From positions 1 to 64,000 of IMG/VR virus record IMGVR_UViG_3300032046_000021: 64,000 nt of DNA; one strand, 5' to 3'. This document shows, piece after piece, positions 9,041 through 32,851 of this stretch. Within the stretch, counting starts at the first letter, position 1. Each line of letters begins with the position of its first letter. Source of the DNA: a virus. The position numbers and the translations under genes were made by a program. The notes under the pieces were generated by a model, which had not been told where the DNA came from, did no database searches, and worked only from the letters and a program-made list of their open reading frames with translations.

Positions 9041-9060
9041 AAGGATATTAAGTAAGAAAG

Positions 9061-9402: not shown

Positions 9403-9448
9403 CTAGAAAGTATATATTATAAGTGGAAATAAAAGGAGGTGAAAAGGA

Positions 9449-10031: not shown

Positions 10032-10133
10032 CTGGTATCTTAAGATACAATATACTACGCTGTCCACTTCTTACTCCGGGAGTTCGGGACTTAGTCTTTC
10101 CACCATTTCCCTAAGTTCCCATATATAAATAAA

Positions 10134-10153
10134 GTTTACCTGAGAATGTAAAC
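10134..10153 (+). promoter_or_regulatory. GTTTAC-N8-GTAAAC operator (perfect)
   Basis: A perfect 6-bp-arm palindrome with an 8-bp spacer, about 275 bp upstream of gene 10409 and just after an ATATATAAAT tract. Confidence 0.6.
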
Positions 10154-10201
10154 GTCACTTAGTGAACTAGACATATTATCCTGATGTGGAAATATAATGG
10201 G

Positions 10202-10221
10202 GTTTACAGCATTAAGTAAAC
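10202..10221 (+). promoter_or_regulatory. GTTTAC-N8-GTAAAC operator (perfect)
   Basis: A second perfect copy. Spacing from the previous one is 68 bp. Confidence 0.6.
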
Positions 10222-10265
10222 TTCCTTATGTGGCTGAGGCGCATCTTCTTACTTTTAATATGGAG

Positions 10266-10303
10266 GTTTAATTGAATATGTAAATTTACATTTTTATGTA
10301 AAC
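10266..10303 (+). promoter_or_regulatory. Two overlapping GTTTAC-type operators
   Basis: GTTTAA-N8-GTAAAT (10266-10285) overlaps ATTTAC-N8-GTAAAC (10284-10303). Both keep the 8-bp spacer. Confidence 0.5.
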
Positions 10304-10337
10304 TTTTAATATAGTCATATTTTGGACATCAGTGGAA

Positions 10338-10369
10338 GTTTACAGCAACGTGTAGACAAATTTTATATA
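10338..10369 (+). promoter_or_regulatory. Promoter-proximal operator and TATA box of gene 10409
   Basis: GTTTAC-N8-GTAGAC followed directly by AAATTTTATATATT. The TATA box is about 40 nt before the ATG. The layout matches 9371-9402. Confidence 0.6.
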
Positions 10370-10408
10370 TTTGAAAAATAATTTTGTTATGTACTTAAGG
10401 GACTCAAA

Positions 10409-11170
10409 ATGGAAATAAAAAATAAGCTTCCAGAAACGGAAAAGCAACTTCCGGACCATTTGAGAATTCTAGAACTAAAGGATTGCGTATTCACGTACGA
10501 TGAAGTAACTTCTAGGGGTTTGCAAAATGCATTCCAACTTTATTGTGGACAGAGGTTGATAGTGGAGTACAGCAAGGTAATTAGACAAAGGGTTAAGGTT
10601 AGGGGCGTCGGAATTGCTAAGTTCAAGCAGAAGTATAATGTTCCAAAAGGTACTGCACTTTATACTTTTGTTCGGGACCACGAGACAAAGGAGTATAAGG
10701 AATTGGAAAGGCTTTGGGCTAAGAGGATAGAGTGGATACAAATGGTCGACCGTGTGAATTGTGATAGAGTAGATAGAGTTGTGGAAGATTCACAAAGGGC
10801 AACTGAGAGACACAAAACAAAGAGTATCGATAAGCAGATAGTGGAGGAGGTTGAGTGGTTGAAGGGAACCAAAACGGCACCAAAGTTCAAAGGGCCATTT
10901 GTATGCAAGGAATGCGGAGGTACAACCTATAGAGTTAATAAAGGACAACAGGCATGTACTAGTTGTGGAGTTGGCTTTAATACACAAAGTGCAGGCCCCG
11001 GTCCAAGAGTCATAAAGAGACCAAAAAGGAAACTCAAAAGAGTGGAGTACATTAATGGAGACGTGAAGGTATTAAGTAAGGAGGGACAATTAGTGAAGCC
11101 TTTGGAGAGGAATGGCGTGATGGAAGTTTATGGTCACGAAGGGTGGATGAGTGGCAAGGGAGTAATGTAG
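10409..11170 (+). CDS. Zinc-ribbon protein of unknown function
   Basis: A 253-residue protein. The first 150 residues are charged and helical with no recognised motif. A zinc ribbon follows near residues 169-190 (CKECGG...CTSCG), and a strongly basic linker (KRPKRKLKR) after about residue 205. This suggests a nucleic-acid-binding protein, possibly an early regulator. The five-operator control region upstream implies tight regulation. It lacks a strong RBS (only AAGGGA), unlike most neighbours. It is followed by a small winged-helix gene 46 bp downstream. Confidence 0.6.
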   Translation: MEIKNKLPETEKQLPDHLRILELKDCVFTYDEVTSRGLQNAFQLYCGQRLIVEYSKVIRQRVKVRGVGIAKFKQKYNVPKGTALYTFVRDHETKEYKELERLWAKRIEWIQMVDRVNCDRVDRVVEDSQRATERHKTKSIDKQIVEEVEWLKGTKTAPKFKGPFVCKECGGTTYRVNKGQQACTSCGVGFNTQSAGPGPRVIKRPKRKLKRVEYINGDVKVLSKEGQLVKPLERNGVMEVYGHEGWMSGKGVM

Positions 11171-11216
11171 TCAGAGTCACTCAGTTATGAAGTGACAGGC
11201 GAGGAGGTGAAAATGA

Positions 11217-11459
11217 ATGCCAATAATTGATGAAGAGGAATGGGAAAGTGGAACCGCTTCTACTTCAGGCGCTACTGAATCAATACTGGAAGCGTTCAAG
11301 AACTTAGGAGCAAACAAGGGCATGGACATGGCGGAAGTCAAGAAGATCACCGGACTCAAATGGATCTTTGGTCCCATGAAGCAGCTGGTTGAGGCCGGCA
11401 AGTTGGAGCGCAAGAAATTCGGCAAGCGGTTCGCGTATAGGCTTGTAGCCCAAGAGTAG
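11217..11459 (+). CDS. Small winged-helix protein, paralogue 3 (MPI start)
   Basis: An 80-residue protein starting MPIIDEEEWESGT. The RBS is GAGGAGGTGA; the nearer ATG at 11213 stops after five codons. It aligns with 9449 and 8284 in DMAEVKKITGLKW, FGPMKQLVEAGKLERKKFG and YR. Likely a DNA-binding winged helix. It belongs to the group of early proteins with an MPI N-terminus. Confidence 0.65.
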   Translation: MPIIDEEEWESGTASTSGATESILEAFKNLGANKGMDMAEVKKITGLKWIFGPMKQLVEAGKLERKKFGKRFAYRLVAQE

Positions 11460-11466
11460 GCTACAG

Positions 11467-11475
11467 TTTTTTTTT
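11467..11475 (+). terminator. T9 terminator after gene 11217
   Basis: Nine T within 10 nt of the stop codon; no stem. Confidence 0.5.
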
Positions 11476-11598
11476 GTTCGATTAGTACAGAGTAGTAATC
11501 TGGTTAACAATTACATTATTTGGATAGATTTGAGTTTAAATCGGAATTTGTAAGAAGTTTTTTGTAAACTAATAAACTCGGGATGCGGAGGTGATAAA

Positions 11599-11865
11599 AT
11601 GCCGATAAGTGCAGAAAGGGAAGGAGTAGATGTTAAGAAAGCATTTCCGCCAGGATACACAGAATACCGGAAGCTCCATCAAAAAGTAATGGTAGTTGCG
11701 AAGGTCGGGTACAACAATGACTGGGCTGCTTATTGTGGTCCGGTTGCAGGAATCAAATCTGAAGACGAGTGGCAGGATGTAGCAGATAACGGCGATAAAA
11801 TCCCTAAAGGGATAGCTGAATTAATGTTTAGACACCTGGCCAAAATATACACATATAGGGAATAG
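11599..11865 (+). CDS. Hypothetical protein with MPI start
   Basis: An 88-residue protein (MPISAEREGVDVKKAF...) after GGAGGTGATAAA. It contains GYNNDWAAYCGPVAGIKSEDEW and ends in a helical segment (IAELMFRHLAKIYTYRE). No family is recognised. It opens the run of tiny, individually RBS-equipped genes reaching to 13.45 kb. Confidence 0.55.
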   Translation: MPISAEREGVDVKKAFPPGYTEYRKLHQKVMVVAKVGYNNDWAAYCGPVAGIKSEDEWQDVADNGDKIPKGIAELMFRHLAKIYTYRE

Positions 11866-11877
11866 GGATCATGCGAA

Positions 11878-11955
11878 ATGTGCAAGAAAATACACAAAGG
11901 AGTATGTGCCAATTTAGGTTCAAAGTTACCTCTTTGTGAGCAGTGGAGGAGGTGA
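11878..11955 (+). CDS. Possible tiny Cys-containing peptide
   Basis: A 25-residue frame (MCKKIHKGVCANLG...LCEQWRR) with three Cys. It has no clear RBS, but its end carries the GGAGGTGA that serves the next small gene. Weak evidence. Confidence 0.25.
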   Translation: MCKKIHKGVCANLGSKLPLCEQWRR

Positions 11956-11959
11956 GAAC

Positions 11960-12022
11960 GTGATAGAAGAAAAGAAAGTAGACGAAGAAGAAGACGAAGA
12001 TTGGGAAGATGAAGAAGAGTAA
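11960..12022 (+). CDS. Twenty-residue acidic peptide
   Basis: GTG start five bases after a perfect GGAGGTGA. It encodes MIEEKKVDEEEDEDWEDEEE, 13 of whose 20 residues are Asp or Glu. Such a peptide could mimic DNA or bind a basic protein. Reality rests on the RBS only, but it is followed by a second RBS-driven small gene. Confidence 0.4.
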   Translation: MIEEKKVDEEEDEDWEDEEE

Positions 12023-12100
12023 GCCCCTAGAGTCTTTGCAAATTAAGACGAAGCGAACTTTTTTCTCGTAGGGCGACATAAGTAACGGAGGTGGAAATGT

Positions 12101-12268
12101 ATGGATATACAGGTAAAGGAATCAAAGAACGTAACGACTCTCATCTTCTATACCACTTCAGATCGACTGGCAAATGCCAAGGCCGCTATCGAAGAGATGA
12201 AGCCAATTCTTGAGAAGCACGGGTTCATAGTTGAGAACGTTCGAGAGAGTCTAACGAAAAGACCTTAG
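12101..12268 (+). CDS. Small hypothetical protein
   Basis: A 55-residue protein (MDIQVKESKNVTTLIFY...) with CGGAGGTGG seven bases upstream. Pattern is beta-strand, helix (DRLANAKAAIEEMKPILEKHG), beta-strand (FIVENVRE), a compact alpha-beta fold. No family recognised. Clean coding potential and RBS support it. Confidence 0.55.
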   Translation: MDIQVKESKNVTTLIFYTTSDRLANAKAAIEEMKPILEKHGFIVENVRESLTKRP

Positions 12269-12304
12269 TAGTGAGTTCCCTTACAATGTAAGGAGGTGAA
12301 AAGT

Positions 12305-12523
12305 ATGGAACCTAAATGTATACATGTTCTTGATGGAATAGTGGAATGGACTGGTTGTCTCACTGGTTACCAACACTGCAGCATTTGCAGTAAGCAAGTG
12401 CCTTTTGTTGTACCAGAAGTACGCTGTAAAAGAAAGGCCAAACACTGCGGATACCGGCTACCGGATGGAGTATGTGTTCCAATTTCCAGGTACGATTACT
12501 TGTTTGAGTGCTCGAAGAAGTGA
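12305..12523 (+). CDS. Cys-rich small protein
   Basis: A 72-residue protein (MEPKCIHVLDGIVEW...) starting seven bases after GGAGGTGA; an earlier GTG lies inside the RBS and is rejected. Cysteines at CIH, CLTGYQHCSIC and CKRKAKHCGYR...C suggest a zinc-binding fold. Function unknown. Confidence 0.55.
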   Translation: MEPKCIHVLDGIVEWTGCLTGYQHCSICSKQVPFVVPEVRCKRKAKHCGYRLPDGVCVPISRYDYLFECSKK

Positions 12524-12539
12524 TGGGGAGGTGAAGTAG

Positions 12540-12728
12540 ATGGCAGTTAAACTGAAGTGTACGCAGTTCATTGAACAACATCTGAAGGCTTATCTTAAGG
12601 ATGGAGATTTGTTCAAACTATTGAAGAATATGCTGGCAGATGCTAGGAACTACGGTACAGACACACATCATTATGCACTCATCAAGGAACTCGAGCGTAT
12701 ATGTATTGAACAGGGAGTGAGTCGGTGA
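12540..12728 (+). CDS. Small helical protein
   Basis: A 62-residue, almost entirely helical protein (FIEQHLKAYLKDGDLFKLLKNML...). RBS GGGGAGGTGA. Stops directly against the next start (TGA ATG). Function unknown. Confidence 0.55.
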   Translation: MAVKLKCTQFIEQHLKAYLKDGDLFKLLKNMLADARNYGTDTHHYALIKELERICIEQGVSR

Positions 12729-12935
12729 ATGCTTTGGAACTGCGTTAAAGCAATGTTAGGTCTTAGAGTTAACGTTCATCTGGCCGACGGTTCGGTTGTT
12801 GTGAACGTGAGAGTAAACAAGTTGGACCGAAACTTCTACGGTAAGCCAATAGTGCAGGTAGATTCCAGGTTTATTCTTCTCAGTAGCATAGCTTATATGG
12901 ACAAACTTTCGGAGGTGATGTTAGGTGAAGACTGA
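12729..12935 (+). CDS. Small beta-rich hypothetical protein
   Basis: A 68-residue protein abutting the previous stop. Alternating hydrophobic strands (VNVHLADGSVVVNVRVNKL, FYGKPIVQVDSRFILL) suggest a small SH3/OB-like barrel. No family assigned. The following gene starts inside its 3' end. Confidence 0.5.
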   Translation: MLWNCVKAMLGLRVNVHLADGSVVVNVRVNKLDRNFYGKPIVQVDSRFILLSSIAYMDKLSEVMLGED

Positions 12936-13125
12936 AAAAGTTGTTACCATGGTTTGTCCTAGTTGCAAAGCTGAGTTTGAACCGGAGCCAATCATTATGA
13001 TTCAGAAAGATGGCAGTACACGCATGGAACTTCATTTGAAGAAAACCTGCAAATACTGTGGCAAAGGATTAGTTCGGAGAGTTGAAAAACATGCCGTGGA
13101 TAAGGGACCGGGAGCTGCACCCTGA
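12925..13125 (+). CDS. Zinc-ribbon small protein
   Basis: A 66-residue protein with a GTG start seven bases after GGAGGTGAT. Two CxxC motifs (CPSC near residue 11, CKYC near 43) form a probable zinc ribbon. Overlaps the previous gene by 11 bases and the next by 35, typical of this compact block. Confidence 0.5.
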   Translation: MKTEKVVTMVCPSCKAEFEPEPIIMIQKDGSTRMELHLKKTCKYCGKGLVRRVEKHAVDKGPGAAP

Positions 13126-13261
13126 GTGGGAACAGCGGTACCAGGAACCTGCCAGGGTAATGCTAATGCTCTGTGGAGCAAAGATATTCATGAATGCTGA
13201 GAGAAAGGATACGCAGATCGAGGTTTGGCTGAGTTGGATGAAGATGGGGGTTGCAGGGTAG
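13091..13261 (+). CDS. Small hypothetical protein (MPW start)
   Basis: A 56-residue protein (MPWIRDRELHPEWEQRYQ...) overlapping the previous gene. Its stop lies just before the GGAGGTGAT of the next gene. Tryptophan-rich C-terminus (IEVWLSWMKMGVAG). No RBS of its own is obvious, so translation may be coupled. Confidence 0.45.
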   Translation: MPWIRDRELHPEWEQRYQEPARVMLMLCGAKIFMNAERKDTQIEVWLSWMKMGVAG

Positions 13262-20905: not shown

Positions 20906-22018
20906 ATGAGTAAAATGTCAGAATTTACTACCAAGGTTCTTAGTGAGTGGGCAACTCAACTTGGTAGAGAACCAGCCGAGCTTACGAAGATGTATAATGA
21001 TGCGTATGAGATTCTAGCAAAGATGGGCAAGCCAGCGGATCAATTAGAAGAGATGGCAAAAACCAGAGTTAGGTCACAGTTGAGAAACGAATTCGCATCA
21101 CCTGCAGTTTCATTCCGGGGCCGTATATTAGCGAAGAGCGACGCATTTAACGTAAATGCGAATGCTTGGGAAGAAGCTGCGGAAATGAATAAGAGTCCAG
21201 AAAGGCAACAGTGGATCGATCAGAGGGCAATCAACGAAGCAGGCCAACCACTCGATATGAGAGAGATTTTCTCGAAATCCAAGAAGAAGAATCCGAACTT
21301 CGGAAAGATCCTACCCAAAGAGAATTTCCTCGCGAACGTTTTTGGAGTCTTTTTGTCAGCTAAAGGAGACCCGCTTCCAGGCAAAGTAACGTTGAGTGGC
21401 AAGAAGGCGAAGATTGTGGTTCCAGTTGATGTACCAGTGCAGGTTAGGCTAAATGATAAGTCAGAGAAAGGTGCAACCTATCGAACACTTTCGTCAGGTA
21501 CTCCGACAGAATTCAAGCCAATACAGGATCCAGACATCCCCGACGCTGAAACGTTGATAACGATGTATTGTGAGCAGTTCTTTACAACCCTAAAGCACTT
21601 AGAGTCAGTACATCAGGCGTTCATTCCAGCAAATGCAACTAAGCCAGATCCTACTAGGATTACAGTCGTAGAGGCAGAATTGATTAGCTTGGATAGTGAG
21701 GTTAATCCAAAATCTCACAACTACAGAATGGTCATAGGCGACGAGAGTTTAGGGTTTACGGAAAAGGAAAGACGTGGTACAACTGTATGGGTTTCAGAAG
21801 CCATATATCCAGCAGTCAAAGATGCAGGACGGGGTACAAGGATGTACGTGATAGGCCAGACTACACAGCCGCAAACGAGTAGAGACTTTACGACCGGCGA
21901 GACAGTGAACAAGCCAGGAGACGTAGGCATTAATGCAATGGGCATATTCGTCAAGAAGGGTTGGTTGATGCCAAAGGATGAGCAGCCGTTCGAGGAAACT
22001 GCGGAGGTTGAAGCGTAA
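20906..22018 (+). CDS. Putative ssDNA-binding (OB-fold) protein
   Basis: A 370-residue protein with RBS GGGGAGGTGA. The N-terminal third is helical. Residues 90-330 alternate strands typical of OB-folds (ENFLANVFGVFLSAKGDP, AKIVVPVDVPVQVRLND, RITVVEAELISL, TRMYVIGQTTQPQ). The C-terminus is acidic (EQPFEETAEVEA), as in many SSBs. It lies next to a Sak4-like recombinase, a usual pairing. RPA-type function is inferred. Confidence 0.5.
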   Translation: MSKMSEFTTKVLSEWATQLGREPAELTKMYNDAYEILAKMGKPADQLEEMAKTRVRSQLRNEFASPAVSFRGRILAKSDAFNVNANAWEEAAEMNKSPERQQWIDQRAINEAGQPLDMREIFSKSKKKNPNFGKILPKENFLANVFGVFLSAKGDPLPGKVTLSGKKAKIVVPVDVPVQVRLNDKSEKGATYRTLSSGTPTEFKPIQDPDIPDAETLITMYCEQFFTTLKHLESVHQAFIPANATKPDPTRITVVEAELISLDSEVNPKSHNYRMVIGDESLGFTEKERRGTTVWVSEAIYPAVKDAGRGTRMYVIGQTTQPQTSRDFTTGETVNKPGDVGINAMGIFVKKGWLMPKDEQPFEETAEVEA

Positions 22019-22374
22019 TGTCAACTCATTTTGAGCAAATAAAATCCCTACTTTCTTTAACGGGTCAAGCCCATATGGAGGAGTTCCCATATGAACAAGT
22101 GTATGTGTATTCTATAGTTACTCCTGCAGGGGAGCTAGTTATAGGAGCACTTGGCAAGAAAGGAACTCGTGTTGTCGATGTGGCAGTACTTCCTGGCTTT
22201 AGGAAGCTTGGAATTGCTTCCGCATTAATCGATATAGCGGAAGTTGACCACGCATATGTGGTATCTAAGGAAGCTGAAAACTTCTGGAGCCACATAGGAT
22301 GGCATTATGGTCACAAAACAATAGACAAGGGAGTAGTCGTGAAAGTATACTGTGAAGAGGGGAAGATCGTTTGA
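22018..22374 (+). CDS. GNAT-like acetyltransferase
   Basis: A 118-residue protein whose ATG overlaps the upstream stop (TAATG). VVDVAVLPGFRKLGIASALIDIAE contains the acetyl-CoA binding motif A (R-x-x-G-I-A), followed by VSKEAENFWSHIGWHYG, the usual C-terminal strand region. Small for the family but complete in the core. It sits directly before queF, so a role in nucleotide or base modification is possible, with protein acetylation as the alternative. Confidence 0.6.
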   Translation: MSTHFEQIKSLLSLTGQAHMEEFPYEQVYVYSIVTPAGELVIGALGKKGTRVVDVAVLPGFRKLGIASALIDIAEVDHAYVVSKEAENFWSHIGWHYGHKTIDKGVVVKVYCEEGKIV

Positions 22375-22790
22375 GTAACGTTGAAGGAATAAAAGCTGTT
22401 GTCGGAGTAAGCTATAGGAAGCATATTAGTGAGTACAGTAAGGAGCTTATAGCGATACCGTTCGGATTTCCGGGCAAACGCGAACTAGTGGAGCATGAAA
22501 CTGATGAGCTAACATCTGTGTGTCCAGTTACAGGATTACCGGATTTCTATCATATGGTCATCAGTTACTTGCCGAAGGATTTGCTGGTAGAGCTGAAGTC
22601 ATTAAAGTTCTACCTCATGCAATTCAGAGACGTTGGCATCTTGCACGAGGATTTGGCGCAGAAGATATTACAAGACTTTGTTGCAGTAGTACATCCGGAA
22701 GTTTGTACAGTCGACTTGACAGCAGCTTCAAGGGGAGGAATAAGTACGCACGTGGTTGCGAGATATCCTGAACCAGGAGGAGGTGAGTAG
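22371..22790 (+). CDS. queF: QueF, 7-cyano-7-deazaguanine reductase
   Basis: A 139-residue protein with a TTG start overlapping the previous stop. It has the family signature ELTSVCPVTGLPDF (catalytic Cys51 and Asp58), the NADPH-binding motif E74-L-K-S-L-K, His92-Glu93 (GILHED) and the ending SRGGIST. Known QueF reduces preQ0 to preQ1 with NADPH. The E-x-KSLK motif argues for the reductase rather than the archaeal amidinotransferase QueF-L. With QueD, QueE, QueC and a DpdA-like enzyme nearby, it predicts preQ1-type DNA modification. Confidence 0.82.
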   Translation: MSNVEGIKAVVGVSYRKHISEYSKELIAIPFGFPGKRELVEHETDELTSVCPVTGLPDFYHMVISYLPKDLLVELKSLKFYLMQFRDVGILHEDLAQKILQDFVAVVHPEVCTVDLTAASRGGISTHVVARYPEPGGGE

Positions 22791-22791
22791 T

Positions 22792-23577
22792 ATGGCATGG
22801 GCAAAGGGACCGAATAAAGACAAGCCACCAGCGAAGACTAAGGAACAGTTGTTTACTGATATTCATGAGCTTGCAAAGAAGGCAGGTATAAAAATTGGAG
22901 TTCACGGAGTTGCTGAATCTGGTAAAACTCACTTCTGTTGCTCCTCACCACCGCCAGTCTATATACTAGAGACTGATGATGGAGCTGCACAACTTGCGAA
23001 CAATTTCCCATCCAAGAACATTAAGGTACTTAACTGCTATGTAACGACAGGAGACCCGCAGACGGAATGTAAGGCCTCATTAGACATGCTGAAAGAAGCG
23101 TTGGTTGCATTGAGTGACTTGAATGAGGGAACTATTTGCATTGATAGCGGTACAGATCTTTGGGAGTGGATTGGAGGAACTCTACGTTTGGAGATTCTGA
23201 AAGTTGACTTGGCAGCTAGAGTAGCTCCCTCTGACTATAAGTGGGCGAATGCGGAGTATCGGTCGATAATCATGAAGTGTCGGGCGATTAATGCTAACTT
23301 CGTTATTACGGCAATGGATGGGGAAGTATTCAGGGATGCTAAGTTGACGCCCACGAATGTGTATAAGGCAGAGTGGCAGAAGTGGACGCCAAGATGGTTG
23401 GATTGCCAAATACGGTTGATGAAGGAAGAAACAAAGACAGGGTATACATTTAGGGGGTTCATTGAGAAGTTCAGGCATCATCGGTTGACAAATAGGGACT
23501 TTTTGAACCTAGACTTTGATGCATTATATGCAGTGCTTAAACCGTATCTAGTGAAACCGCCAGAAGGTGCAACGTAA
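22792..23577 (+). CDS. Sak4-like RecA-fold ATPase
   Basis: A 261-residue protein with RBS GGAGGAGGTGA. Walker A GVAESGKTH (39-47), Walker B TICIDSGTDLW (near 114-124). The order is that of the AAA_24/Sak4 phage recombinases: short RecA core with DGA after the first strand. It probably anneals or exchanges strands together with the OB-fold protein upstream. Confidence 0.7.
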   Translation: MAWAKGPNKDKPPAKTKEQLFTDIHELAKKAGIKIGVHGVAESGKTHFCCSSPPPVYILETDDGAAQLANNFPSKNIKVLNCYVTTGDPQTECKASLDMLKEALVALSDLNEGTICIDSGTDLWEWIGGTLRLEILKVDLAARVAPSDYKWANAEYRSIIMKCRAINANFVITAMDGEVFRDAKLTPTNVYKAEWQKWTPRWLDCQIRLMKEETKTGYTFRGFIEKFRHHRLTNRDFLNLDFDALYAVLKPYLVKPPEGAT

Positions 23578-23693
23578 TGTTGAACAACGTACCTAGAAAT
23601 CTTTGGTCAGTTGTAACGTTTGGTCTCTTTCATTTTCAAGAAATTGACAGATTGGCAGCAGTAATATATGGAGTTGGTTACAATGACGAATGA
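23577..23693 (+). CDS. Possible 38-residue protein
   Basis: The ATG overlaps the previous stop (TAATG) and the frame runs MLNNVPRNLWSVVTFGLF...YGVGYNDE to 23693, overlapping the next start by 11 bases. No RBS other than coupling. Plausible but unsupported by homology. Confidence 0.35.
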   Translation: MLNNVPRNLWSVVTFGLFHFQEIDRLAAVIYGVGYNDE

Positions 23694-24048
23694 TGAGTAC
23701 GATGAGAAGTTGGGTATCACAGCAGATGCTATGATGAATTCATTGGCAGCAAAGGCAGTACAAAAGGCTTGTAAAGAGGTACTTATGAAGGTACTTCGAA
23801 AGCATAATCTGCGTAAGGATAGTTGGCATAGAACAACTAGTGTATTCTCAATGGGAGAGTTAGTGCATAACAAGATGCACCGATTAAAAGAACTGTATCC
23901 TAAGATAGCGTTGGGGGGATTGGAAGTACTGAAAGAAGTCAATGATGAACTAGATGATATCATTGCATACAGTGCATTTCAAAAATACGTCCTGAATGTC
24001 GATAAGTTGAGTAACCCTTACACTACACCGGAGAGTGACACTGTTTAA
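23683..24048 (+). CDS. Helical protein, possibly nucleotide-related
   Basis: A 121-residue all-helical protein (MTNDEYDEKLGITAD...). Start chosen after GGAGTTGGTT. VHNKMHRLKEL and VLKEVNDELDDIIAYS resemble the helices of MazG/DUF1599-type proteins (K..RL, then E..D...Y). Such proteins are often linked to nucleotide metabolism. Weak similarity by eye only. Confidence 0.45.
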   Translation: MTNDEYDEKLGITADAMMNSLAAKAVQKACKEVLMKVLRKHNLRKDSWHRTTSVFSMGELVHNKMHRLKELYPKIALGGLEVLKEVNDELDDIIAYSAFQKYVLNVDKLSNPYTTPESDTV

Positions 24049-24158
24049 CTCCCGTAGAACGGTTAACTGCTTGATACCGGAGGCAGCATTAAGCAGGTTC
24101 GGATTCACCTCCTTTCCTGGCTCCTTGGGTATCCTTTAACCCTACAGAGGGATTAGCA

Positions 24159-24359
24159 GTGGGTTCAGGTCAGGTAGGAAGATATGCATTTCCATCTCGT
24201 GCAGATGGAAAGTGCAAGAAGGGTCATGATTTGGTAGGAATCGTGAGTGTGAAGTTATTTTCGATAGGGAGGGACTGGTTAGTGGGAGGTTATCTTTTCT
24301 GTCCAGTTTGTAAGGTCATTTATCGGAAGGTGCAATCAGATGGTAAAAGAACGAATTAG
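24159..24359 (+). CDS. Small zinc-ribbon protein
   Basis: A 66-residue protein with a GTG start after AGAGGGA. CKKGHDL and CPVCK give a zinc-ribbon pattern. Overlaps queD by 20 bases. The 110-bp gap before it (24049-24158) contains a partial ACGGTTAA element near 24059 and no gene. Confidence 0.5.
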   Translation: MGSGQVGRYAFPSRADGKCKKGHDLVGIVSVKLFSIGRDWLVGGYLFCPVCKVIYRKVQSDGKRTN

Positions 24360-24753
24360 GATATTAAGTATCGATAGTATCGAGTTCGATGCAGCACATT
24401 ATATTCCGGGACATCCCAAATGTGGGTGTATTCATGGTCACACGTTCTTTGTTCGGAACCTAAGAGTATACTGCAACAAGTTTGTGGACTTTGGAAAGAT
24501 CAAGGAAGAGATCCGTCATTGGGATCATATACTTGTGATTCCGAAGAAGCATATGGACTTTTGGTACTCAAAAATTAATCCATTATTACATGAAATTGGA
24601 ATCAACCAATGCTTTATGATAGTTGATGGTGAGCCATCAGTCGAAGATATTTCGGATTTGATAGTAGCTCAGCTAAAAACTATTCCTGGAGTTGTTGATG
24701 TACACTTCACTCTTTGTGAAGGACCACATCAGAGAGTTGAGGGGTTTGAGTAA
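24340..24753 (+). CDS. queD: QueD, 6-carboxytetrahydropterin synthase
   Basis: A 137-residue member of the PTPS family. FDAAHYIP (zinc His20), CGCIHGH (Cys at the active site, zinc His32 and His34), VDFGKIKEEI and WDH (near 61-63) are all present, as is a late acidic residue in LCEGP. It converts dihydroneopterin triphosphate to 6-carboxytetrahydropterin, step two of preQ0 synthesis. It lies between a zinc-ribbon gene and queE. Confidence 0.87.
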   Translation: MVKERIRILSIDSIEFDAAHYIPGHPKCGCIHGHTFFVRNLRVYCNKFVDFGKIKEEIRHWDHILVIPKKHMDFWYSKINPLLHEIGINQCFMIVDGEPSVEDISDLIVAQLKTIPGVVDVHFTLCEGPHQRVEGFE

Positions 24754-24871
24754 GCCAGCAAAGTGCTGTCCTCATTGTGGTACGGATCTTAGTGACTATA
24801 CTCTTCCTTCAGATGAATATTGGAAAACTCGTTGCCCGTATTGCGGAGGTAAGTTAGATGTTAGTAAATGA
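24746..24871 (+). CDS. 41-residue zinc-ribbon protein
   Basis: TTG start after GAGGGG, overlapping queD by eight bases and queE by 14. CPHCG and CPYCGG (two CxxC) make a clear zinc ribbon. It lies between queD and queE, so its transcript is part of the deazaguanine operon. Role unknown. Confidence 0.5.
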   Translation: MSKPAKCCPHCGTDLSDYTLPSDEYWKTRCPYCGGKLDVSK

Positions 24872-25487
24872 AATCTTCGAATCAATTCAAGGAGAAGGTA
24901 CATACCTCGGATACCCCGCACTCTTTATACGTTTGCAGGGATGCAATTTGAAGTGTTGGTTCTGTGACACGAAGTATGCATTAGGAATGTATGAGGACGG
25001 AATGGATGTTAGGCCCGAAAGCTTGGTTGCGTTAATCAGAAACTCACCTTCCTATCACGTTGTGTTTACAGGAGGGGAACCTTTACTTCAACAGAAAGAG
25101 ATAGGTAAAGTTATACGTGAGGTTCAGAGAGCCAAGTTCTATGAAGTGGAAACTAACGGGACAATCAAGCCTAATATTGAGTTTTTGGTTCACCTTTTCA
25201 CAGTATCACCTAAGGATGACTTTCAAATTTCACCTAGCTTTTTCGAGATACCGGGAGTGGTTTTTAAGTTCGTGGTTGATAAAGAGGAGGATTTGGAGAA
25301 AATCGAGAACTTTGTAGACTTACACAACATCACAAGGCCAGTGTACTTGATGCCACAAGCTACTACACTGTTGGAGCATAAGAAGAAGTTACCGATGCTT
25401 TTTGAGTTCGTGAAAGTGCATCAAGGGCACTATAGGATTACGCCTAGGTTGCAGATTTTGGCGTATGGGAAGAGGAAGGGAGTTTGA
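24858..25487 (+). CDS. queE: QueE, 7-carboxy-7-deazaguanine synthase
   Basis: A 209-residue radical SAM enzyme. FESIQGEG at the start, the CNLKCWFC cluster motif (Cys29, 33, 36) binding a 4Fe-4S centre, and TGGEPLLQ for SAM binding are all present. It makes CDG from 6-carboxytetrahydropterin. RBS TGCGGAGGT lies inside the preceding small gene. Confidence 0.9.
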   Translation: MLVNEIFESIQGEGTYLGYPALFIRLQGCNLKCWFCDTKYALGMYEDGMDVRPESLVALIRNSPSYHVVFTGGEPLLQQKEIGKVIREVQRAKFYEVETNGTIKPNIEFLVHLFTVSPKDDFQISPSFFEIPGVVFKFVVDKEEDLEKIENFVDLHNITRPVYLMPQATTLLEHKKKLPMLFEFVKVHQGHYRITPRLQILAYGKRKGV

Positions 25488-25497
25488 GGGTGAAAGT

Positions 25498-25827
25498 ATG
25501 AAAGGTGATGCAGAGTGTGAGGATCATACCTGTGAGTATCTCAGGTATTGTGTATGGCATCCAAATGAATGTTATGGAAAGCCTTGGAAAGTGAAAGAAA
25601 TGTTAGCGCCACACACTTACATATTGAGCACTGTTAACTTCATCACGCCAGAAGGCAAAGTGATTCATAGAGACATTATGCAGGAAGTTGTTGACGTTAA
25701 TGGTAATTACTATTGTGTGATATATAAACGGATGTCAAAGCAGCAACAGGAACTCATGGATATACTACAAACTCAGTTTGTAGAGTATTTAGTAGAACCG
25801 GAGGCAAAAGCTTGTACGAGATGTTGA
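25498..25827 (+). CDS. Cys-rich hypothetical protein
   Basis: A 109-residue protein (MKGDAECEDHTCEYLRYCVW...). Start chosen after GAGGGTGA. A Cys-rich head (C-x4-C-x5-C) is followed by a beta-rich middle and a C-terminal helix ending CTRC. Lies inside the deazaguanine gene cluster with no recognised function. Confidence 0.5.
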   Translation: MKGDAECEDHTCEYLRYCVWHPNECYGKPWKVKEMLAPHTYILSTVNFITPEGKVIHRDIMQEVVDVNGNYYCVIYKRMSKQQQELMDILQTQFVEYLVEPEAKACTRC

Positions 25828-25973
25828 GCAATCTAGGTGCAAACCTTTGCGCAAGGGAAATAAGCAAACAAGTATGGACTGTGTATAAAGAGCAATCCTT
25901 CAGTGAGACGGAAGGAGACCCAGAGTGCGGTCGTCTTGTACAAGTTGCCATATCCGGTATTAGGAGGTGTTAA
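25821..25973 (+). CDS. Possible 50-residue protein
   Basis: ATG overlapping the previous stop; encodes MLSNLGANLCAREISKQVW... and ends against the RBS/start region of the next gene. No RBS of its own. Fills the gap well but unsupported by homology. Confidence 0.4.
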   Translation: MLSNLGANLCAREISKQVWTVYKEQSFSETEGDPECGRLVQVAISGIRRC

Positions 25974-25975
25974 AG

Positions 25976-26242
25976 TTGGTTAAAAAAGAAGCCAGAAAGC
26001 AACTTTTTCTAGAGGCAAACGATACTTTAATAATAAGGAACACAACCGCAAATGTAATGCGGTTAGAAACGGATAAGGACTATGTAGAAATTCCTCCAAC
26101 CGAAGCGATAGTAGTAGTGCGCGAAACTATGTGGGTGAGTTACAGTGAGCACTCTAGCCGGTTATATAAGTTCCTTCGCATGACTTTCTGGCAAAGGTTA
26201 AGGTGGGCACTTTCAAGAAAGGCAGTTGAGGTGATAGAATGA
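25976..26242 (+). CDS. Small beta-rich protein with basic end
   Basis: An 88-residue protein with a TTG start after AGGAGGTG. Strands (LFLEANDTLIIRNTTANVMRLE, VEIPPTEAIVVVRE) are followed by a basic amphipathic helix (FLRMTFWQRLRWALSRK). Could associate with membrane. Overlaps the next gene by ATGA. Confidence 0.45.
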   Translation: MVKKEARKQLFLEANDTLIIRNTTANVMRLETDKDYVEIPPTEAIVVVRETMWVSYSEHSSRLYKFLRMTFWQRLRWALSRKAVEVIE

Positions 26243-26685
26243 ATCTCCTAAAGAAACTACGTACCCTCATTCGTCGTCCTGCGGTAACCGTAAGGGAACT
26301 GCAAGACACTGAGGTTGCGCGGGCAGTAAGTCCCGGGCGACATCAGCAAGAAAATGCTGAGTCTCATAAGAGAGATGGCCTAAGTCACGGTCCTAAACTA
26401 CGTGACTCAGTGGCCTCGCCTGTAGAGAGAGAAATCAGGGGGATAAGTCCTGCGCCCTCTTTAGTTCAGAAAGGTATCGTTACGGCAGCAAGTGTTCAAG
26501 AAGTTCGACAGCAATTAGACCGAGAAGCATTTTTTAGGCAACTTAACAAAAGAGATATCCCAGTTATTCGTCGTCCACTTGGCGACATCCGTGCGGTACG
26601 CAAGATGAAGCACGGTCACCAATCACCATATTATCGGAAGAGTGTGAAAGCAAATGTCAAGCCAGAAGAAGAGGAAGAAGCATGA
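26239..26685 (+). CDS. Basic, probably disordered protein
   Basis: A 148-residue protein, rich in Arg, Gln, Ser and Pro with little hydrophobic core, ending in an acidic stretch (KPEEEEEA). Linked by ATGA overlaps on both sides. Perhaps an adaptor or virion-associated protein. No family recognised. Confidence 0.45.
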   Translation: MNLLKKLRTLIRRPAVTVRELQDTEVARAVSPGRHQQENAESHKRDGLSHGPKLRDSVASPVEREIRGISPAPSLVQKGIVTAASVQEVRQQLDREAFFRQLNKRDIPVIRRPLGDIRAVRKMKHGHQSPYYRKSVKANVKPEEEEEA

Positions 26686-27038
26686 GTGAAGGTTTGAAAG
26701 AGAAAACCAAGAAATGTGGTTGTTACCACTGTTCTTGCTGTAGGTTCTATCATGGTTTTGCGAAGGGTTGCGAGTTGCCTGGGTGTGCCTACGTTTTGGT
26801 TTCGGTTGCACAGCGAGACAAAGAAAATGAATTGTCGAAACAACAAGAAGCTTTCCAGAAACAAGTTGGCTATTTGAAAGAAGACATTAAAAAACTGGAG
26901 AGGGAGCGTGGCTTGCTAAAACAGAAACTACACCAATTTCCCAAGTTGCCTAAAAATCCTAACACGGCAGACAGAATTAATCACTCGATTGAGTGTCTTG
27001 AGTGGCTAGAACAGTTCAGGGAGTTGCTTCGGGAATGA
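26682..27038 (+). CDS. Zinc-binding coiled-coil protein
   Basis: A 118-residue protein. A Cys cluster (CGCYHCSCCRFY...CELPGC, residues 12-35) is followed by a long coiled coil (about 45-90, RDKENELSKQQEAFQ...LERERGLLKQK) and a C-terminal helix. ATGA overlap with its neighbours. Possibly a scaffold for the modification enzymes around it (inference). Confidence 0.5.
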   Translation: MSEGLKEKTKKCGCYHCSCCRFYHGFAKGCELPGCAYVLVSVAQRDKENELSKQQEAFQKQVGYLKEDIKKLERERGLLKQKLHQFPKLPKNPNTADRINHSIECLEWLEQFRELLRE

Positions 27039-27361
27039 GTCTGAAACAGAAAATCCAAGAAAAAGCCAAAACTATCAATGAATTAGAAAAAATCCTCTAC
27101 CAAAAATCAAGGTACGCCTCACGGGAATTCATCTATGAAAAAGACAAACAAGAAACATGGATTACGGTTGATGATGTCACTGCTTTGTTGGGTGAAGCCA
27201 CAAAATGTCCTAGATGTGGAGCAAATCTTCAAACTTATTGTCCTAATGCAAAATGTGAAGGCTACATGAGGGATGGGGATAAGGAACAATTCTACGATAA
27301 AAAATCTGGAAAATGGTTGGCTGTTTTGGGTGCGGATGGAAAGGAGAAGGCGAAACCATGA
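27035..27361 (+). CDS. Helical protein with zinc ribbon
   Basis: A 108-residue protein (MSLKQKIQEKAKTIN...), ATGA overlap with the previous gene. N-terminal helix, then CPRCGANLQTYCPNAKC, a zinc ribbon, and a small C-terminal motif (DKKSGKWLAVLGADGKEK). Directly upstream of the GTP cyclohydrolase with another ATGA overlap. Confidence 0.5.
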   Translation: MSLKQKIQEKAKTINELEKILYQKSRYASREFIYEKDKQETWITVDDVTALLGEATKCPRCGANLQTYCPNAKCEGYMRDGDKEQFYDKKSGKWLAVLGADGKEKAKP

Positions 27362-28044
27362 CACACGACGTTCAAGAAGAACAAGCTGATGATCTAGGAA
27401 TAATGGCAGGTATCTCTAACTACAGCATAGTGATAAAGTCCTCTAAGTGGACACTCTTCATTGAGTTGGAAGTGAAGGTTCCGATACTCAATAAACGGGG
27501 AGCACATATGAGCAGGTTGATATTCCCAGAGACAGTGAAGTGTGAGAGTGTTGAGCAGTTTATTAACGATGCAAAGAAGTTGATAAAGGAAAAAACTGGC
27601 GTTTACCCCTACATCAAAATGGTGTTTAAGTTTCCGTGGAAGGATCAGTTTCCAACTATTATCGTCGAGAACTATATTGCCATAGGAAATGAATACACGT
27701 ATATTATGAAAGGGATAACTGCGTGTCCTTGTTCAAAGGAAAGCATAGGTATCGGGCATATGCAGAAGTGTGAGTTGAAGATAAAGATAAATGCTAAACT
27801 TCCACACCCCAAATTTGAGGACATATTTAGGTTGATGGAAAGTTGCTTTTCTGCATCGTTGACGGAGAAGTTGAAGAGAGATGAGGAAGCTGCTAAGATT
27901 AAGGAAGCTCAGGATAATGCAAAATTCGTCGAGGATGTCGTGAGGCACGCGATTATGAATATTCCTAATATTAGGTATGCGAGAGCAGAGTCGGATGAAA
28001 GTATTCACAGTCATAAGGCGGTAGCGGAGTGGTGGAGGAGGTGA
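27358..28044 (+). CDS. GTP cyclohydrolase, MptA/FolE2 type
   Basis: A 228-residue protein; ATG chosen after AAAGGAGA with ATGA overlap. Family landmarks: RGAHMSR (47-53), ACPCSKE with metal-binding Cys (123-125), GIGHMQ (His134, Gln136) and ESIHSHKAVAE near the end (Glu214, His217). These enzymes open GTP to begin pterin and deazaguanine synthesis. Here it supplies QueD. The archaeal flavour (MptA) fits the host domain, though FolE2 cannot be excluded. Confidence 0.82.
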   Translation: MTHDVQEEQADDLGIMAGISNYSIVIKSSKWTLFIELEVKVPILNKRGAHMSRLIFPETVKCESVEQFINDAKKLIKEKTGVYPYIKMVFKFPWKDQFPTIIVENYIAIGNEYTYIMKGITACPCSKESIGIGHMQKCELKIKINAKLPHPKFEDIFRLMESCFSASLTEKLKRDEEAAKIKEAQDNAKFVEDVVRHAIMNIPNIRYARAESDESIHSHKAVAEWWRR

Positions 28045-28049
28045 CTTAG

Positions 28050-28772
28050 ATGGAAGTTATGGTTACAAAATCTCAACGTTCGACAGTCGTATCTCCAGCA
28101 TTTAGTAAACCTTCAACAAAGGTTGTAATGTTGTTGAGTGGGGGAGTTGACTCTGCTACCTTAGCATACTATTTGCTGAAACAGCATCAGGAAGTATACG
28201 CACTGACTGTTGATTATGGGCAAAAGCACTTTAAGGAACTCCGAGCAGCCGTAGAAATTGCTCATGCTGCAGGTATAAGTTGGAAAGTTCTTGATTTACG
28301 AACGTTACAACCTCTGCTTAAAAGTGCATTGACTACTAATGATCCAATCCCAGAAGGCCACTATACTGCAGAGTCTCAGAAGTTAACAGTCGTACCCAAC
28401 AGAAACGCTATCCTATTGAACATTGCTGCTGGCTACGCAATTAGCATAGGCGCCAACACTATTGCGTATGCTGCACATAGGAACGATAGGACAATATACC
28501 CCGACTGCAGGCCAGAGTTTGTGGGCGCGTTACAGGCAGCATTGGATGCCGGAACAGATGCAGATTTACTGGTATATGCACCGTTCATTAACATGACGAA
28601 GGCGCAAATTGTGGAACTAGGTATATCATTGAACGTTCCCTTTGAATTAACCTGGTCATGTTATAAGGGAGGACAAAAGGCGTGTGGCAGGTGTGGAACG
28701 TGTGTGGAACGATTAGAGGCATTTGCGTTGAATCATGTTAAGGATCCAATTGAGTATGAGGGAGTAATATGA
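28050..28772 (+). CDS. queC: QueC, 7-cyano-7-deazaguanine (preQ0) synthase
   Basis: A 240-residue protein with RBS GGAGGAGGTGA. PP-loop SGGVDS at residues 30-35, VDYGQ near 54-58, VPNRN, and a C-terminal zinc cluster (CYKGGQKACGRCGTC) are all present. It uses ATP and ammonia to turn CDG into preQ0. The last biosynthetic step before the QueF reduction and DpdA insertion. Confidence 0.92.
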   Translation: MEVMVTKSQRSTVVSPAFSKPSTKVVMLLSGGVDSATLAYYLLKQHQEVYALTVDYGQKHFKELRAAVEIAHAAGISWKVLDLRTLQPLLKSALTTNDPIPEGHYTAESQKLTVVPNRNAILLNIAAGYAISIGANTIAYAAHRNDRTIYPDCRPEFVGALQAALDAGTDADLLVYAPFINMTKAQIVELGISLNVPFELTWSCYKGGQKACGRCGTCVERLEAFALNHVKDPIEYEGVI

Positions 28773-28785
28773 CGCCCACAATATT

Positions 28786-28908
28786 AATTCATTCAACTTG
28801 CATTCGGCTGGCCGTATCAATTCATTCGACTGGCCAGTTACTCTATTTTGGCCAGTTACTCCATTCGAGGGGTGTTTCGAGTAAATTGGTTTGTTCCGAG
28901 TAAATTGG
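28786..28908 (+). repeat. Direct repeats between queC and dpdA
   Basis: Three pairs of direct repeats fill this 158-bp gap: AATTCATTC-A/G-ACT (28786 and 28819), TGGCCAGTTACTC-T/C-ATT (28831 and 28849) and CGAGTAAATTGG (28878 and 28897). They may be a regulator-binding array controlling the transglycosylase. A 44-codon frame through them is made of the same repeats and is not called. Confidence 0.55.
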
Positions 28909-28930
28909 ATTTCATGGAAGGGATGAAGAA

Positions 28931-29689
28931 GTGAAGTTAGCAATAATCAGTCCAACAGTACACCTAACCGAACTTAGTAGCCTAGGGGACATTCAGTTTG
29001 CTCTTGGTCATGTTAAGGATCTTAAGTACGTTGAGTACTATCGTGAACAAGCAAAACAAACGTACACTATTATGGATAACGGAAGTTATGAACTTGGCAA
29101 GAGCGTCAGTTTTGACGACATATTCGAAGCAGCGGAAGAGATAAAGCCTGACGAAATCGTCGCACCGGATGTGCAGTGGAATCCAGTTGAGTCTCTGAAT
29201 CTAACTCGACACTTCATGAAATATGCGCATGGGCGCGGGTTACGAGATAAGTACAAGATTATGGTTGTTGTCTGGGCGTTTGACCCAGGAGACTTTCCGA
29301 TGTGGTACAAGGAGTACCTCAAGTTGAACCCCGATGTAATTGGTATCGGAAAATGGCTGTCAACGAAATTCCTAGCAAGGCCTAGTGTTGTTCAATTGTT
29401 GAAATATGAGCATATGTGGAAGAGTGATATTGAGCACCATTTTCTGGGATGTGGTTTTCCTGGCGAAGCACTCCAACTGCATGATGAGGGGCGCTCAATG
29501 GACACTAGCGGACCAATCGCCGATGCTATGAATGGGTTGAGATATGTGGAAGGTGAGGAATACTTAAACCTTCATACGAGTTCGTTGAAGAGGAGTTTGG
29601 ACTTTAATGCCCGGTTAACACCTGAGCAACTCGAAATAGCCAAAGCAAACTGTCGGTTAATGTTAACCTATGCACATGGAGGAAAATAA
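28931..29689 (+). CDS. dpdA: DpdA-like DNA guanine transglycosylase
   Basis: A 252-residue protein with a GTG start after GGAAGGGA. It resembles the TGT-like DpdA proteins of phages: IMDNGSYELG (Asp49, probable catalytic region), EIVAPDV (Asp80), an internal TIM-barrel-like alternation and FLGCGFPGEAL. Known DpdA enzymes exchange guanine in DNA for a 7-deazaguanine base. It ends the pathway encoded upstream. Length is that of short phage DpdA, without the RNA-binding or zinc parts of tRNA TGT. Confidence 0.72.
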   Translation: MKLAIISPTVHLTELSSLGDIQFALGHVKDLKYVEYYREQAKQTYTIMDNGSYELGKSVSFDDIFEAAEEIKPDEIVAPDVQWNPVESLNLTRHFMKYAHGRGLRDKYKIMVVVWAFDPGDFPMWYKEYLKLNPDVIGIGKWLSTKFLARPSVVQLLKYEHMWKSDIEHHFLGCGFPGEALQLHDEGRSMDTSGPIADAMNGLRYVEGEEYLNLHTSSLKRSLDFNARLTPEQLEIAKANCRLMLTYAHGGK

Positions 29690-29729: not shown

Positions 29730-30377
29730 ATGACAGGAGTGACTCAAGTGACCCAAGGTACTAAGTACGATCTATCAACAGAAGATGCAGTTTGGTTAGC
29801 GTGTGCCATAGATGGGGAAGGTAGTGTAGTTCCACCTCCTTCACAAGCTGTTGCGTGTTATAACTCGTCAATTGAGTTTATAAATAACGCAAAAAGAATA
29901 CTCGAACTTTTAGACGTTATTTACAAATTCTCATCTTATGAATACAAAGGACATGAAAAGTACGGATATCAACAGTTAAAACTAATGTACAGCATTAGAG
30001 TTTGGAGAAGAGAAGAAGTAATTAAAATTCTTCCTGTAATAATTCCCTATCTCATAATTCCTAAAAAGAAAGAGGCAGCAGAGAAAGCTTTAACAGAATG
30101 TAAAAAGTCTCTTGAAGAAGAGGAAAAGCGGTTTCAAAATTACAGTAAAATTCTTTCTTTAATAGAACAAGAGCTTCATACTGCACCTGAAATCGAGTCT
30201 ATAACTCACATTCACGCTATTCATAGCAGATTAGATTTTCTTCAAAAGAAAGGGTATACAGTTAAACAACTGATTCCACAATCTCAGTTTATAATTGATA
30301 AAGTAGGTTGGAAACGAACATCAAAGCAAATTGAGCGTAAAGACTTCCAACGACATAAGGAGAGTGTTTTCGCATGA
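29730..30377 (+). CDS. LAGLIDADG-type homing endonuclease
   Basis: A 215-residue protein. WLACAIDGEGSV (residues 22-33) is a LAGLIDADG-like helix with its Gly-Glu-Gly end, followed by VWRREEVIKILPVIIPYLIIPKKKEAAEKAL, typical of the saddle's second half. The C-terminal half is helical. The gene is A+T-rich, has its own promoter and overlaps the polymerase start by ATGA. Probably a free-standing selfish endonuclease next to a conserved target gene. Confidence 0.65.
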   Translation: MTGVTQVTQGTKYDLSTEDAVWLACAIDGEGSVVPPPSQAVACYNSSIEFINNAKRILELLDVIYKFSSYEYKGHEKYGYQQLKLMYSIRVWRREEVIKILPVIIPYLIIPKKKEAAEKALTECKKSLEEEEKRFQNYSKILSLIEQELHTAPEIESITHIHAIHSRLDFLQKKGYTVKQLIPQSQFIIDKVGWKRTSKQIERKDFQRHKESVFA

Positions 30378-32851
30378 CGGCCTATGATTTGGTAACGCTA
30401 GAGGCCGTAGATAAAAATGGAAAGTCCGACATCTACCTGTGGGGCCGTGATGAGCAAGGAAACCGCAAACGTTTTGTCGATAGAACATGGAGTCCGTATT
30501 TTTACATTCCCAAAGGAGCTACACTTCTAACTGACTTACTTCACCGTACAGGTGAAATCGTTCCTGATTTATTCGGTGAATGGACAGAAAAAATTACAAC
30601 CCCCTTATCCGGTAATGTTGGACAACTACGTAAACTCTTCACTAAGCACTGGCAAGCTGACATACTTCCCGAAATCGCGTATCTGGTTGAAAAGGGCATT
30701 TACGCATCTTTTGAGGCAATTGAACAGGACGGAAAGTTAAAGATTCAACCTTGTGACCCCGTATACGCTCAGTTAAGGATTTGTTTCATGGACATGGAGG
30801 TTGACGCTACTGCAGAAAGGTTTCCAGAGGCAAAGGATGCGTTAGAAGCAATCGTGTCAGTTGCAGCGTTCGATACAAAGTTGGAGTTGTGGGTACTATT
30901 CTGTTGGCGACAAGATCAGGAACCTTGTGACGTTTTAGTATCCGATGATACTGTAGTCAGGATTTTTAACAACGAGAAAGACATGATAAAGGCAATTGTC
31001 AACTATTATGCATCGAGAGGATTCGACTGCTTCATAGGATGGAATACTAATACTTGGGACTGGCCGTATTTGATTAATCGGTGCAGGATTTTGAACGTCG
31101 AGTATAAAATCATATCGCCAGTATGGTCATTCTTTTACAGAGAGAAATTTGATCTAGAATCGAAACAAATAAAGATTCAGGTAGTTTGCAAAGGTCGAGT
31201 GATGTTCGACGGACTTGAGACGTATAAAAAGATGACGTCATTTGAAGCAAAGTTGGAGTCATATTCATTAGAATATGTAGTTTGGCATGAGTTGAAGGAA
31301 ATAAGAATCAAGCAAGTGATTCATGACTTATGGCAAACAGATGATATTTTACAGGTAGCTTACTACCCCAAAAAAGATGCGGATTGGGTAGTTAGGATTT
31401 TCAAGAAACGACAAATCATCGAATACTATTCAATGATTCGTAGGTACACAGGATGTCGATTAGAGGATTCGCATGTTAACTCGAAGATATTGGATTCGTT
31501 AATTTTGCACCGTGCAAAGGCTGAAGGGTTCGTCCTACCTTCAAAACGTCCTTACGATCCCAACCGTAAACCAAAGAAAGAATCTTCATATAAAGGAGCA
31601 ATGGTTAGAGAGCCTAAAGTCGGCCTGCACTGGTGTGTGGGTGTTCTAGACTTTAGAAGTCATTACCCGTACATCATCATAGCGTGTAACATGAGTCCAG
31701 AACGTCTAGACCCCAACGGCGATATCGAGGTTGGTAATGGGGTTAGGTTCGCTAGCACGCCCGAAGGTTTCGTTCCACGAGTAATTCGTGGATTAGTCAA
31801 TGAACGTGGCATTATTACGAAAAAGATGGAAGCGTTAGTGATTGATTCTCCAGAATGGAATCTCTTATATCAGCACCAGTTTGCATTGAAGTTCTTAATC
31901 ACATCATTTTACGGAGTTTTTGCATACGCCGGATTCAGGTTGTATAGATTGGAAATTGCGTATTCTATCACATATCTCGGAAGAGATTTGATGCAACACG
32001 CGATCAATGTTGTTGAGAGTGATAAATGGATAAAACGATCAGTTATCTACGGCGACACTGACTCATTATTCAACACAATGAAAGAAGTAAGTTGGGACGA
32101 GTTAGTTAGAGTTAGCGAGATGGTGAACGCCGAACTAAGGCAGTTATGTATTGATAGAAAGTATCTAACGTACGTTTCAATGAAAGCAGAGAGAGTTTAC
32201 GATGGGATCATATTCACGTATTTGAGAGGAGCAACAAAGGTAAAGTTACATAGAAGGAAGAAAAAAACGAAACAAGAGGGAGCAAAGAAGAAGTATTACG
32301 GGAGGATTAAGTGGCAAGATAGTAAGTTCTTATCAATAGATAAGTGGGATAATAAGAACATGGCTGCTAAGAGGTCGGATTCATCTCGGTTTACACACGA
32401 GGTTCAGACTAAGGTGTTACAGGATCCTATTAACAAAGTCTCTGTTTCAATCGTAGAAGCATACCTTAAAGAGATGAAGGTAGAATTTCGGAAGCGACCG
32501 CTAGTCGAGATAGGCATTCCACGAGGGGTTAAAACCTTTTATGATAACTCTCCCTGGAGTAGAGGTGCATTGTGGACTCGTGATCACTTTGACCCCCTAG
32601 TACTACAACATTTGAAGCCAAAGTTGCTATATGTGAAACCGTCCGAAATCGGTAAACTAAAGAAGAGAGACGGTAAGTTTTGTACGCCAACTGACGCAGT
32701 TTGTTTCGATGACCCCACCACACTTCCTGAAGACATACGGAAATGTATTGATTGGGAAAAGATGATCGAGAAGACCATTACTGCCAAGACGGAGGAAATT
32801 ATTGCCGCAATATCGGTAAAGAAACAAAAATTACTGGGGGCATTTATGTGA
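30374..32851 (+). CDS. polB: Family B DNA polymerase
   Basis: An 825-residue replicative polymerase. Exo I contains D140-M-E142; Exo II is FIGWNTNTWDWPYL (220-233); Exo III is probably YYPKKDADW (330-338). Polymerase motif A is LDFRSHYPY (425-433), motif B KFLITSFYGVFAY (506-518), motif C YGDTDS (559-564), then a KAERVY motif. Both proofreading and synthesis sites look intact. Replicates viral DNA before deazaguanine modification. Confidence 0.92.
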   Translation: MTAYDLVTLEAVDKNGKSDIYLWGRDEQGNRKRFVDRTWSPYFYIPKGATLLTDLLHRTGEIVPDLFGEWTEKITTPLSGNVGQLRKLFTKHWQADILPEIAYLVEKGIYASFEAIEQDGKLKIQPCDPVYAQLRICFMDMEVDATAERFPEAKDALEAIVSVAAFDTKLELWVLFCWRQDQEPCDVLVSDDTVVRIFNNEKDMIKAIVNYYASRGFDCFIGWNTNTWDWPYLINRCRILNVEYKIISPVWSFFYREKFDLESKQIKIQVVCKGRVMFDGLETYKKMTSFEAKLESYSLEYVVWHELKEIRIKQVIHDLWQTDDILQVAYYPKKDADWVVRIFKKRQIIEYYSMIRRYTGCRLEDSHVNSKILDSLILHRAKAEGFVLPSKRPYDPNRKPKKESSYKGAMVREPKVGLHWCVGVLDFRSHYPYIIIACNMSPERLDPNGDIEVGNGVRFASTPEGFVPRVIRGLVNERGIITKKMEALVIDSPEWNLLYQHQFALKFLITSFYGVFAYAGFRLYRLEIAYSITYLGRDLMQHAINVVESDKWIKRSVIYGDTDSLFNTMKEVSWDELVRVSEMVNAELRQLCIDRKYLTYVSMKAERVYDGIIFTYLRGATKVKLHRRKKKTKQEGAKKKYYGRIKWQDSKFLSIDKWDNKNMAAKRSDSSRFTHEVQTKVLQDPINKVSVSIVEAYLKEMKVEFRKRPLVEIGIPRGVKTFYDNSPWSRGALWTRDHFDPLVLQHLKPKLLYVKPSEIGKLKKRDGKFCTPTDAVCFDDPTTLPEDIRKCIDWEKMIEKTITAKTEEIIAAISVKKQKLLGAFM

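Follow-up and report, generated by a model that had tools for sequence, protein, structure and literature searches.

Genes for a predicted GTP-to-DNA 7-deazaguanine pathway, with a queF-overlapping acyltransferase gene, in a probably archaeal virus

The window analysed here is a DNA stretch of 64,000 nucleotides (nt), positions 1 to 64,000 of the IMG/VR virus record IMGVR_UViG_3300032046_000021 (67,308 bp), and derives from a low-GC tailed virus (42% GC). It contains the following genes, with their predicted products:

22018..22374, plus strand: GNAT-family N-acyltransferase, 118 aa
22371..22790, plus strand: QueF, preQ0 nitrile reductase (type II), TTG start
24340..24753, plus strand: QueD, divergent 6-carboxytetrahydropterin synthase
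24858..25487, plus strand: QueE, radical SAM 7-carboxy-7-deazaguanine synthase
27358..28044 (open frame from 27313), plus strand: FolE2/MptA GTP cyclohydrolase
28050..28772, plus strand: QueC, 7-cyano-7-deazaguanine (preQ0) synthase
28931..29689, plus strand: DpdA-type DNA guanine transglycosylase with TGT fold, 252 aa, GTG start
30374..32851, plus strand: PolB DNA polymerase, near dpdA

Several further short genes lie between queF and dpdA, and a LAGLIDADG-like gene (29730-30377; weak match, E 0.015), possibly encoding a homing endonuclease, lies between dpdA and polB.

A reading of the sequence alone had placed QueF, QueD, QueE, FolE2/MptA, QueC and DpdA at these coordinates with intact motifs, and frames, family scans and motifs bear this out: all six genes are open frames, and the motifs were checked by alignment with solved structures or relatives, or by direct reading. 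Specifically, QueF matches TIGR03139 (preQ(1) synthase) at 112.8 bits, above the cut-off of 86.9, and PF14489 at E 5e-23, and retains the catalytic residues Cys51 and Asp58, the NADPH motif ELKSLK (type E(S/L)KSxK), and HED. Its best PDB match is the B. subtilis-type structure 4f8b (73.9 bits), with the QueF-Like structure 5jyx at 33.5 bits; motif, family cut-off and nearer structure together predict that QueF is of the reductase type. QueD matches PF01242 at 32 bits, above the cut-off, and phrog_2389 at E 3e-12, falls below the TIGR03367 equivalog cut-off (37.5 versus 89.25 bits), and has the active-site residues CxxxHGH, DH, and CEG. QueE matches PF04055, phrog_2076 (E 2e-42), and PDB 6nhl (E 7e-14), and contains CxxxCxxC; QueC matches TIGR00364 at 212.7 bits (cut-off 150.3). 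FolE2/MptA matches PF02649 (E 3e-29) and PDB 2r5r (E 5e-12); the motifs CPCSK and ESIHSH line up in the 2r5r alignment. MptA proper yields a cyclic phosphate; the product here could be either the triphosphate or the cyclic phosphate, and in the latter case QueD would need an extra step or host help. Among known phages, FolE2 matched a single unannotated record, and we dropped it as a trait common to them. At locus L163 (9971-11416), an intein-like insert (CVSGDTLM...VVLHN before CPKTGQPD) sits directly at the catalytic cysteine of QueF.

A near-twin contig, IMGVR_UViG_3300032070_000007, bears the same que/DpdA gene set and is about 94-96% identical to the window in most aligned blocks of DNA, with lower identity near queD, queE, and queC. 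Between the two, dN/dS is 0.06-0.16 across QueF (0.058), QueE (0.067), QueC (0.087), FolE2, and DpdA; five of the six pathway genes are under purifying selection. The sixth, queD, has been swapped at the same place (window 24340-24753, twin L002 4799-5215): the two proteins share 35% amino-acid identity and both are QueD, so that the exchange of like for like suggests the pathway has been kept. The twin starts at approximately window position 13,160 and its far end corresponds to the window start (window 1-13164, L003/L004), an offset expected for circularly permuted, near-complete genomes. When DpdA, QueF, and terminase were each used alone for scanning, only the twin contig matched, and the window contains no tRNA genes and no Rfam families.

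DpdA has no meaningful match among Pfam and NCBIfam models, and its assignment, previously proposed as a DpdA-like transglycosylase, instead finds support in profile, model, and gene neighbourhoods. The profile of its 15-member family (A9) matches the DNA-guanine transglycosylase 7UI4 (E 1.1e-6) and no tRNA TGT sequence. The AlphaFold model (pLDDT 80, pTM 0.82) aligns with TGT structures, preQ0 and preQ1 complexes included (VIA-align Z 18.0, 236 residues, rmsd 3.8), and residues D49, N50, D80, H170, G173, and D191 are invariant in the 15 aligned members, with D49, D80, and D191 as the predicted catalytic aspartates. No stretch of the alignment is sufficiently conserved for scanning. A tblastn search with the window DpdA retrieved proteins in Bacillus phages, Weizmannia phage Youna2, and Flavobacterium phage immuto, and the relatives examined (Bacillus phage BSP7, Youna2, and immuto) all lie within que clusters, in BSP7 and Youna2 immediately upstream of DNA polymerase; the immuto protein carries the annotation DNA guanine transglycosylase. 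In all, about 30 viral que loci or contigs contain the window-type family. At locus L093 the DpdA relative adjoins QueF, and at L071 (6174-7739) a 522-aa frame, as read from the sequence, comprises a DpdA/TGT-like part (DSGAF, HAFG, SADS) and, after it, a complete QueF. These relatives suggest that the window DpdA would act on DNA rather than tRNA. In a tree of the family, the window copy and its twin sit on a long branch whose placement is weakly supported. Further DpdA subfamilies, DpdA3 and DpdA4, the latter of the archaeal-virus type, have reportedly been described by Cui et al. in NAR in 2023.

The host is probably archaeal, as the earlier reading had claimed, and our best guess from protein similarity is a methanogen. 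Among the best 80 loci from 85k genomes, the PolB (PF00136, PF03104) relatives at the top are archaeal, Methanomicrobiales first (~30% identity) and then haloarchaea, and bacterial relatives occur only far down; in the phage collection, the best 15 matches listed are haloarchaeal viruses. A Hef/XPF-like nuclease at 33927 also points to an archaeal host. The terminase and the UvrD helicase, however, have their nearest relatives in bacterial phages, and for this reason we infer the host rather than assign it. A terminase search of 232 genomes of the methanogen class revealed no provirus, a result by itself uninformative on the host. The claim that archaeal hosts normally lack preQ1 agrees with our scans, in which four archaeal control genomes and nine methanogen MAGs contained no QueF. 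In the genome of Halogeometricum limi, a QueF match with one in-frame TAG (L255, G135:C5:87819-88055) is perhaps a provirus remnant.

The complete route from GTP to DNA with QueF and DpdA that the sequence-only reading postulated is supported by gene families and motifs, by selection, by the comparison of structures, and by the neighbourhoods of the genes. Together with shielding of the genome from restriction as its purpose, we give this interpretation a probability of about 0.85. In the order of enzyme action that we infer, FolE2/MptA, QueD, QueE, and QueC would convert GTP to preQ0; QueF would reduce preQ0 to preQ1; and DpdA would swap guanines in DNA for the 7-deazaguanine base, which would in turn shield the viral genome against host restriction. 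A coupled GNAT may acylate the preQ1 amine. The base inserted would be preQ1 rather than preQ0, the expectation resting on QueF being, by motif and family cut-off, a nitrile reductase; to this extent the original prediction of preQ1 stands, with the qualification that the acyltransferase gene coupled to queF leaves room for a final base other than preQ1. Modification with 7-deazaguanines protects phage DNA, and dPreQ1 is present in the DNA of two QueF-bearing viruses, Haloarcula vallismortis tailed virus 1 (HVTV-1) and Streptococcus phage Dp-1 (PMC6884629), in keeping with the statement that preQ1 in DNA is known for few viruses, a haloarchaeal one included.

HVTV-1, in whose DNA dPreQ1 amounts to about 30% of G (PMC6884629), resembles the window virus in encoding QueC, QueD, QueE, QueF, and a GTP cyclohydrolase; it differs in having FolE rather than FolE2/MptA and in having no annotated GNAT overlapping queF. 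No DpdA was recognised in HVTV-1 in 2019 (PMC6884629). Its gp69 (DUF6610; L005 13253-14413) has a DpdA-like pattern, HLLGG...SID, and resembles the window DpdA family remotely at the profile level (72% probability, E 3e-5), which makes it a candidate transglycosylase, and a good candidate for the one missed in 2019; gp83 was likewise checked for kinship with DpdA and discarded. Because gp69 is only a remote profile relative, the window DpdA belongs to another subfamily; it does not match PF20314, the haloarchaeal DUF6610 type. The DpdA homologues of BSP7, Youna2, immuto, and Campylobacter phage CP220 are 23-24% identical to the window DpdA and, unlike that of the probably archaeal window virus, come from phages with bacterial hosts; the stretch read of BSP7 and Youna2 contains no QueF. 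Dp-1 shares with the window virus QueF, QueC, QueD, QueE, a transglycosylase, and dPreQ1 as the (here predicted) DNA base (PMC6884629), and differs in its bacterial host, its FolE, and the annotation of its transglycosylase as tRNA-ribosyltransferase. Thus preQ1 in DNA is already known, and the window virus departs from HVTV-1 in its DpdA subfamily, in FolE2/MptA, and in a GNAT gene overlapping queF. With the window virus, preQ1-type modification of DNA would reach beyond haloarchaeal viruses to one that is low in GC, probably archaeal, and equipped with a different DpdA subfamily, and the virus's own DpdA makes the entire path testable from one genome.

The fold common to DpdA and tRNA TGT would also allow the genes to act on host tRNA, raising its queuosine or archaeosine, and to leave viral DNA unmodified. 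We consider this very unlikely: the DpdA family goes together with que clusters in viruses, often beside DNA polymerases, one relative is annotated as a DNA guanine transglycosylase, the family profile matches 7UI4 and not tRNA TGT sequences, and preQ1 is not known to be used in archaeal tRNA. Very unlikely, too, is that the window QueF is an amidinotransferase (QueF-L) and the base archaeosine (dG+). QueF has its fold in common with archaeal QueF-L, and the two are hard to separate by sequence (Hutinet 2019, PMC6884629), but ELKSLK is intact, TIGR03139 is matched above its cut-off, the QueF structure outscores the QueF-Like structure (74 versus 33 bits), and the QueF enzymes of HVTV-1 and Dp-1 gave mainly dPreQ1 (PMC6884629).

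A further alternative accepts the route to preQ1 and concerns the final base, which could be an N-acyl-7-deazaguanine if the GNAT attaches an acyl group, most simply acetyl, to the aminomethyl nitrogen of preQ1 or dPreQ1. The GNAT gene, absent from the sequence-only reading, overlaps queF by 4 bp (stop and start share TTGA at 22371-22374), and overlaps of the two genes recur, by ORF coordinates, at L116 (GNAT then QueF) and L062 (QueF then GNAT). We searched PF13508 in 125 viral records that contain QueF or QueC, leaving out the window itself; QueF calls required the motif ExK(S/T)xK because first-pass QueF profiles drifted into FolE. Among QueC loci, 12 of the 58 that have QueF carry a GNAT no more than 3 kb from the cluster, against 0 of the 55 that lack QueF (p=0.0003), in a count that scores L136 as QueF-positive by a variant motif and for a family picked after the window gene had been seen. 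The association holds after clustering at 70% identity (8/39 versus 0/49, p=0.001) and 60% identity (8/32 versus 0/36, p=0.001) and is not significant at 50% (single linkage, 10 and 12 groups; 2/10 versus 0/12, p=0.19); with the strict motif and with loci lacking QueC also counted, it is 11/68 versus 1/57 (p=0.006). A PolA control with many matches shows no difference (20/58 versus 19/55), and the other, single-seed control profiles have few members, with Tmk (p=0.01) and RNR (p=0.05) leaning to QueF-negative loci. Since preQ1 has an amine and preQ0 has none, these data are most simply read as N-acylation of preQ1, and phage immuto has a formyltransferase gene inside its que/DpdA/QueF cluster.

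Against acylation stand several properties of the genes themselves. The GNATs near QueF clusters belong to several unrelated lineages. The window GNAT retains the RKLGIA acetyl-CoA loop (RxxGxA motif), but its PF13508 match (E 4e-5, 24.2 bits) is slightly below the cut-off of 27, its structure model is poor (pLDDT 48), its dN/dS of 0.42 reflects the weakest constraint save for the exchanged queD, and it is also part of a closely packed run of genes, together with those for a 373-aa protein and a Sak4-like product. An N-acylated final base is therefore a tentative proposal. It is likewise possible, though doubtful, that viruses with QueF recruited GNATs several times to N-acylate preQ1 and that their genomes contain a base not yet described, for example N-acetyl-preQ1 (7-acetamidomethyl-7-deazaguanine). 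Cui et al. (NAR, 2023) are said to have described DpdM and DpdN, with N-methyl and N-formyl dPreQ1 known; we know of no N-acetyl dPreQ1 derivative from that work. The QueF-linked acyltransferases give rise to a prediction that is both specific and cheap: several viral lineages would contain a new modified base in their DNA. At L051 (8284-9312), a protein combining an FkbH-like HAD part and a GNAT part starts a few bases past queF. Elsewhere in the window, a 1490-aa frame with many degenerate repeats (53839-58311) possibly encodes a tail or surface fibre.
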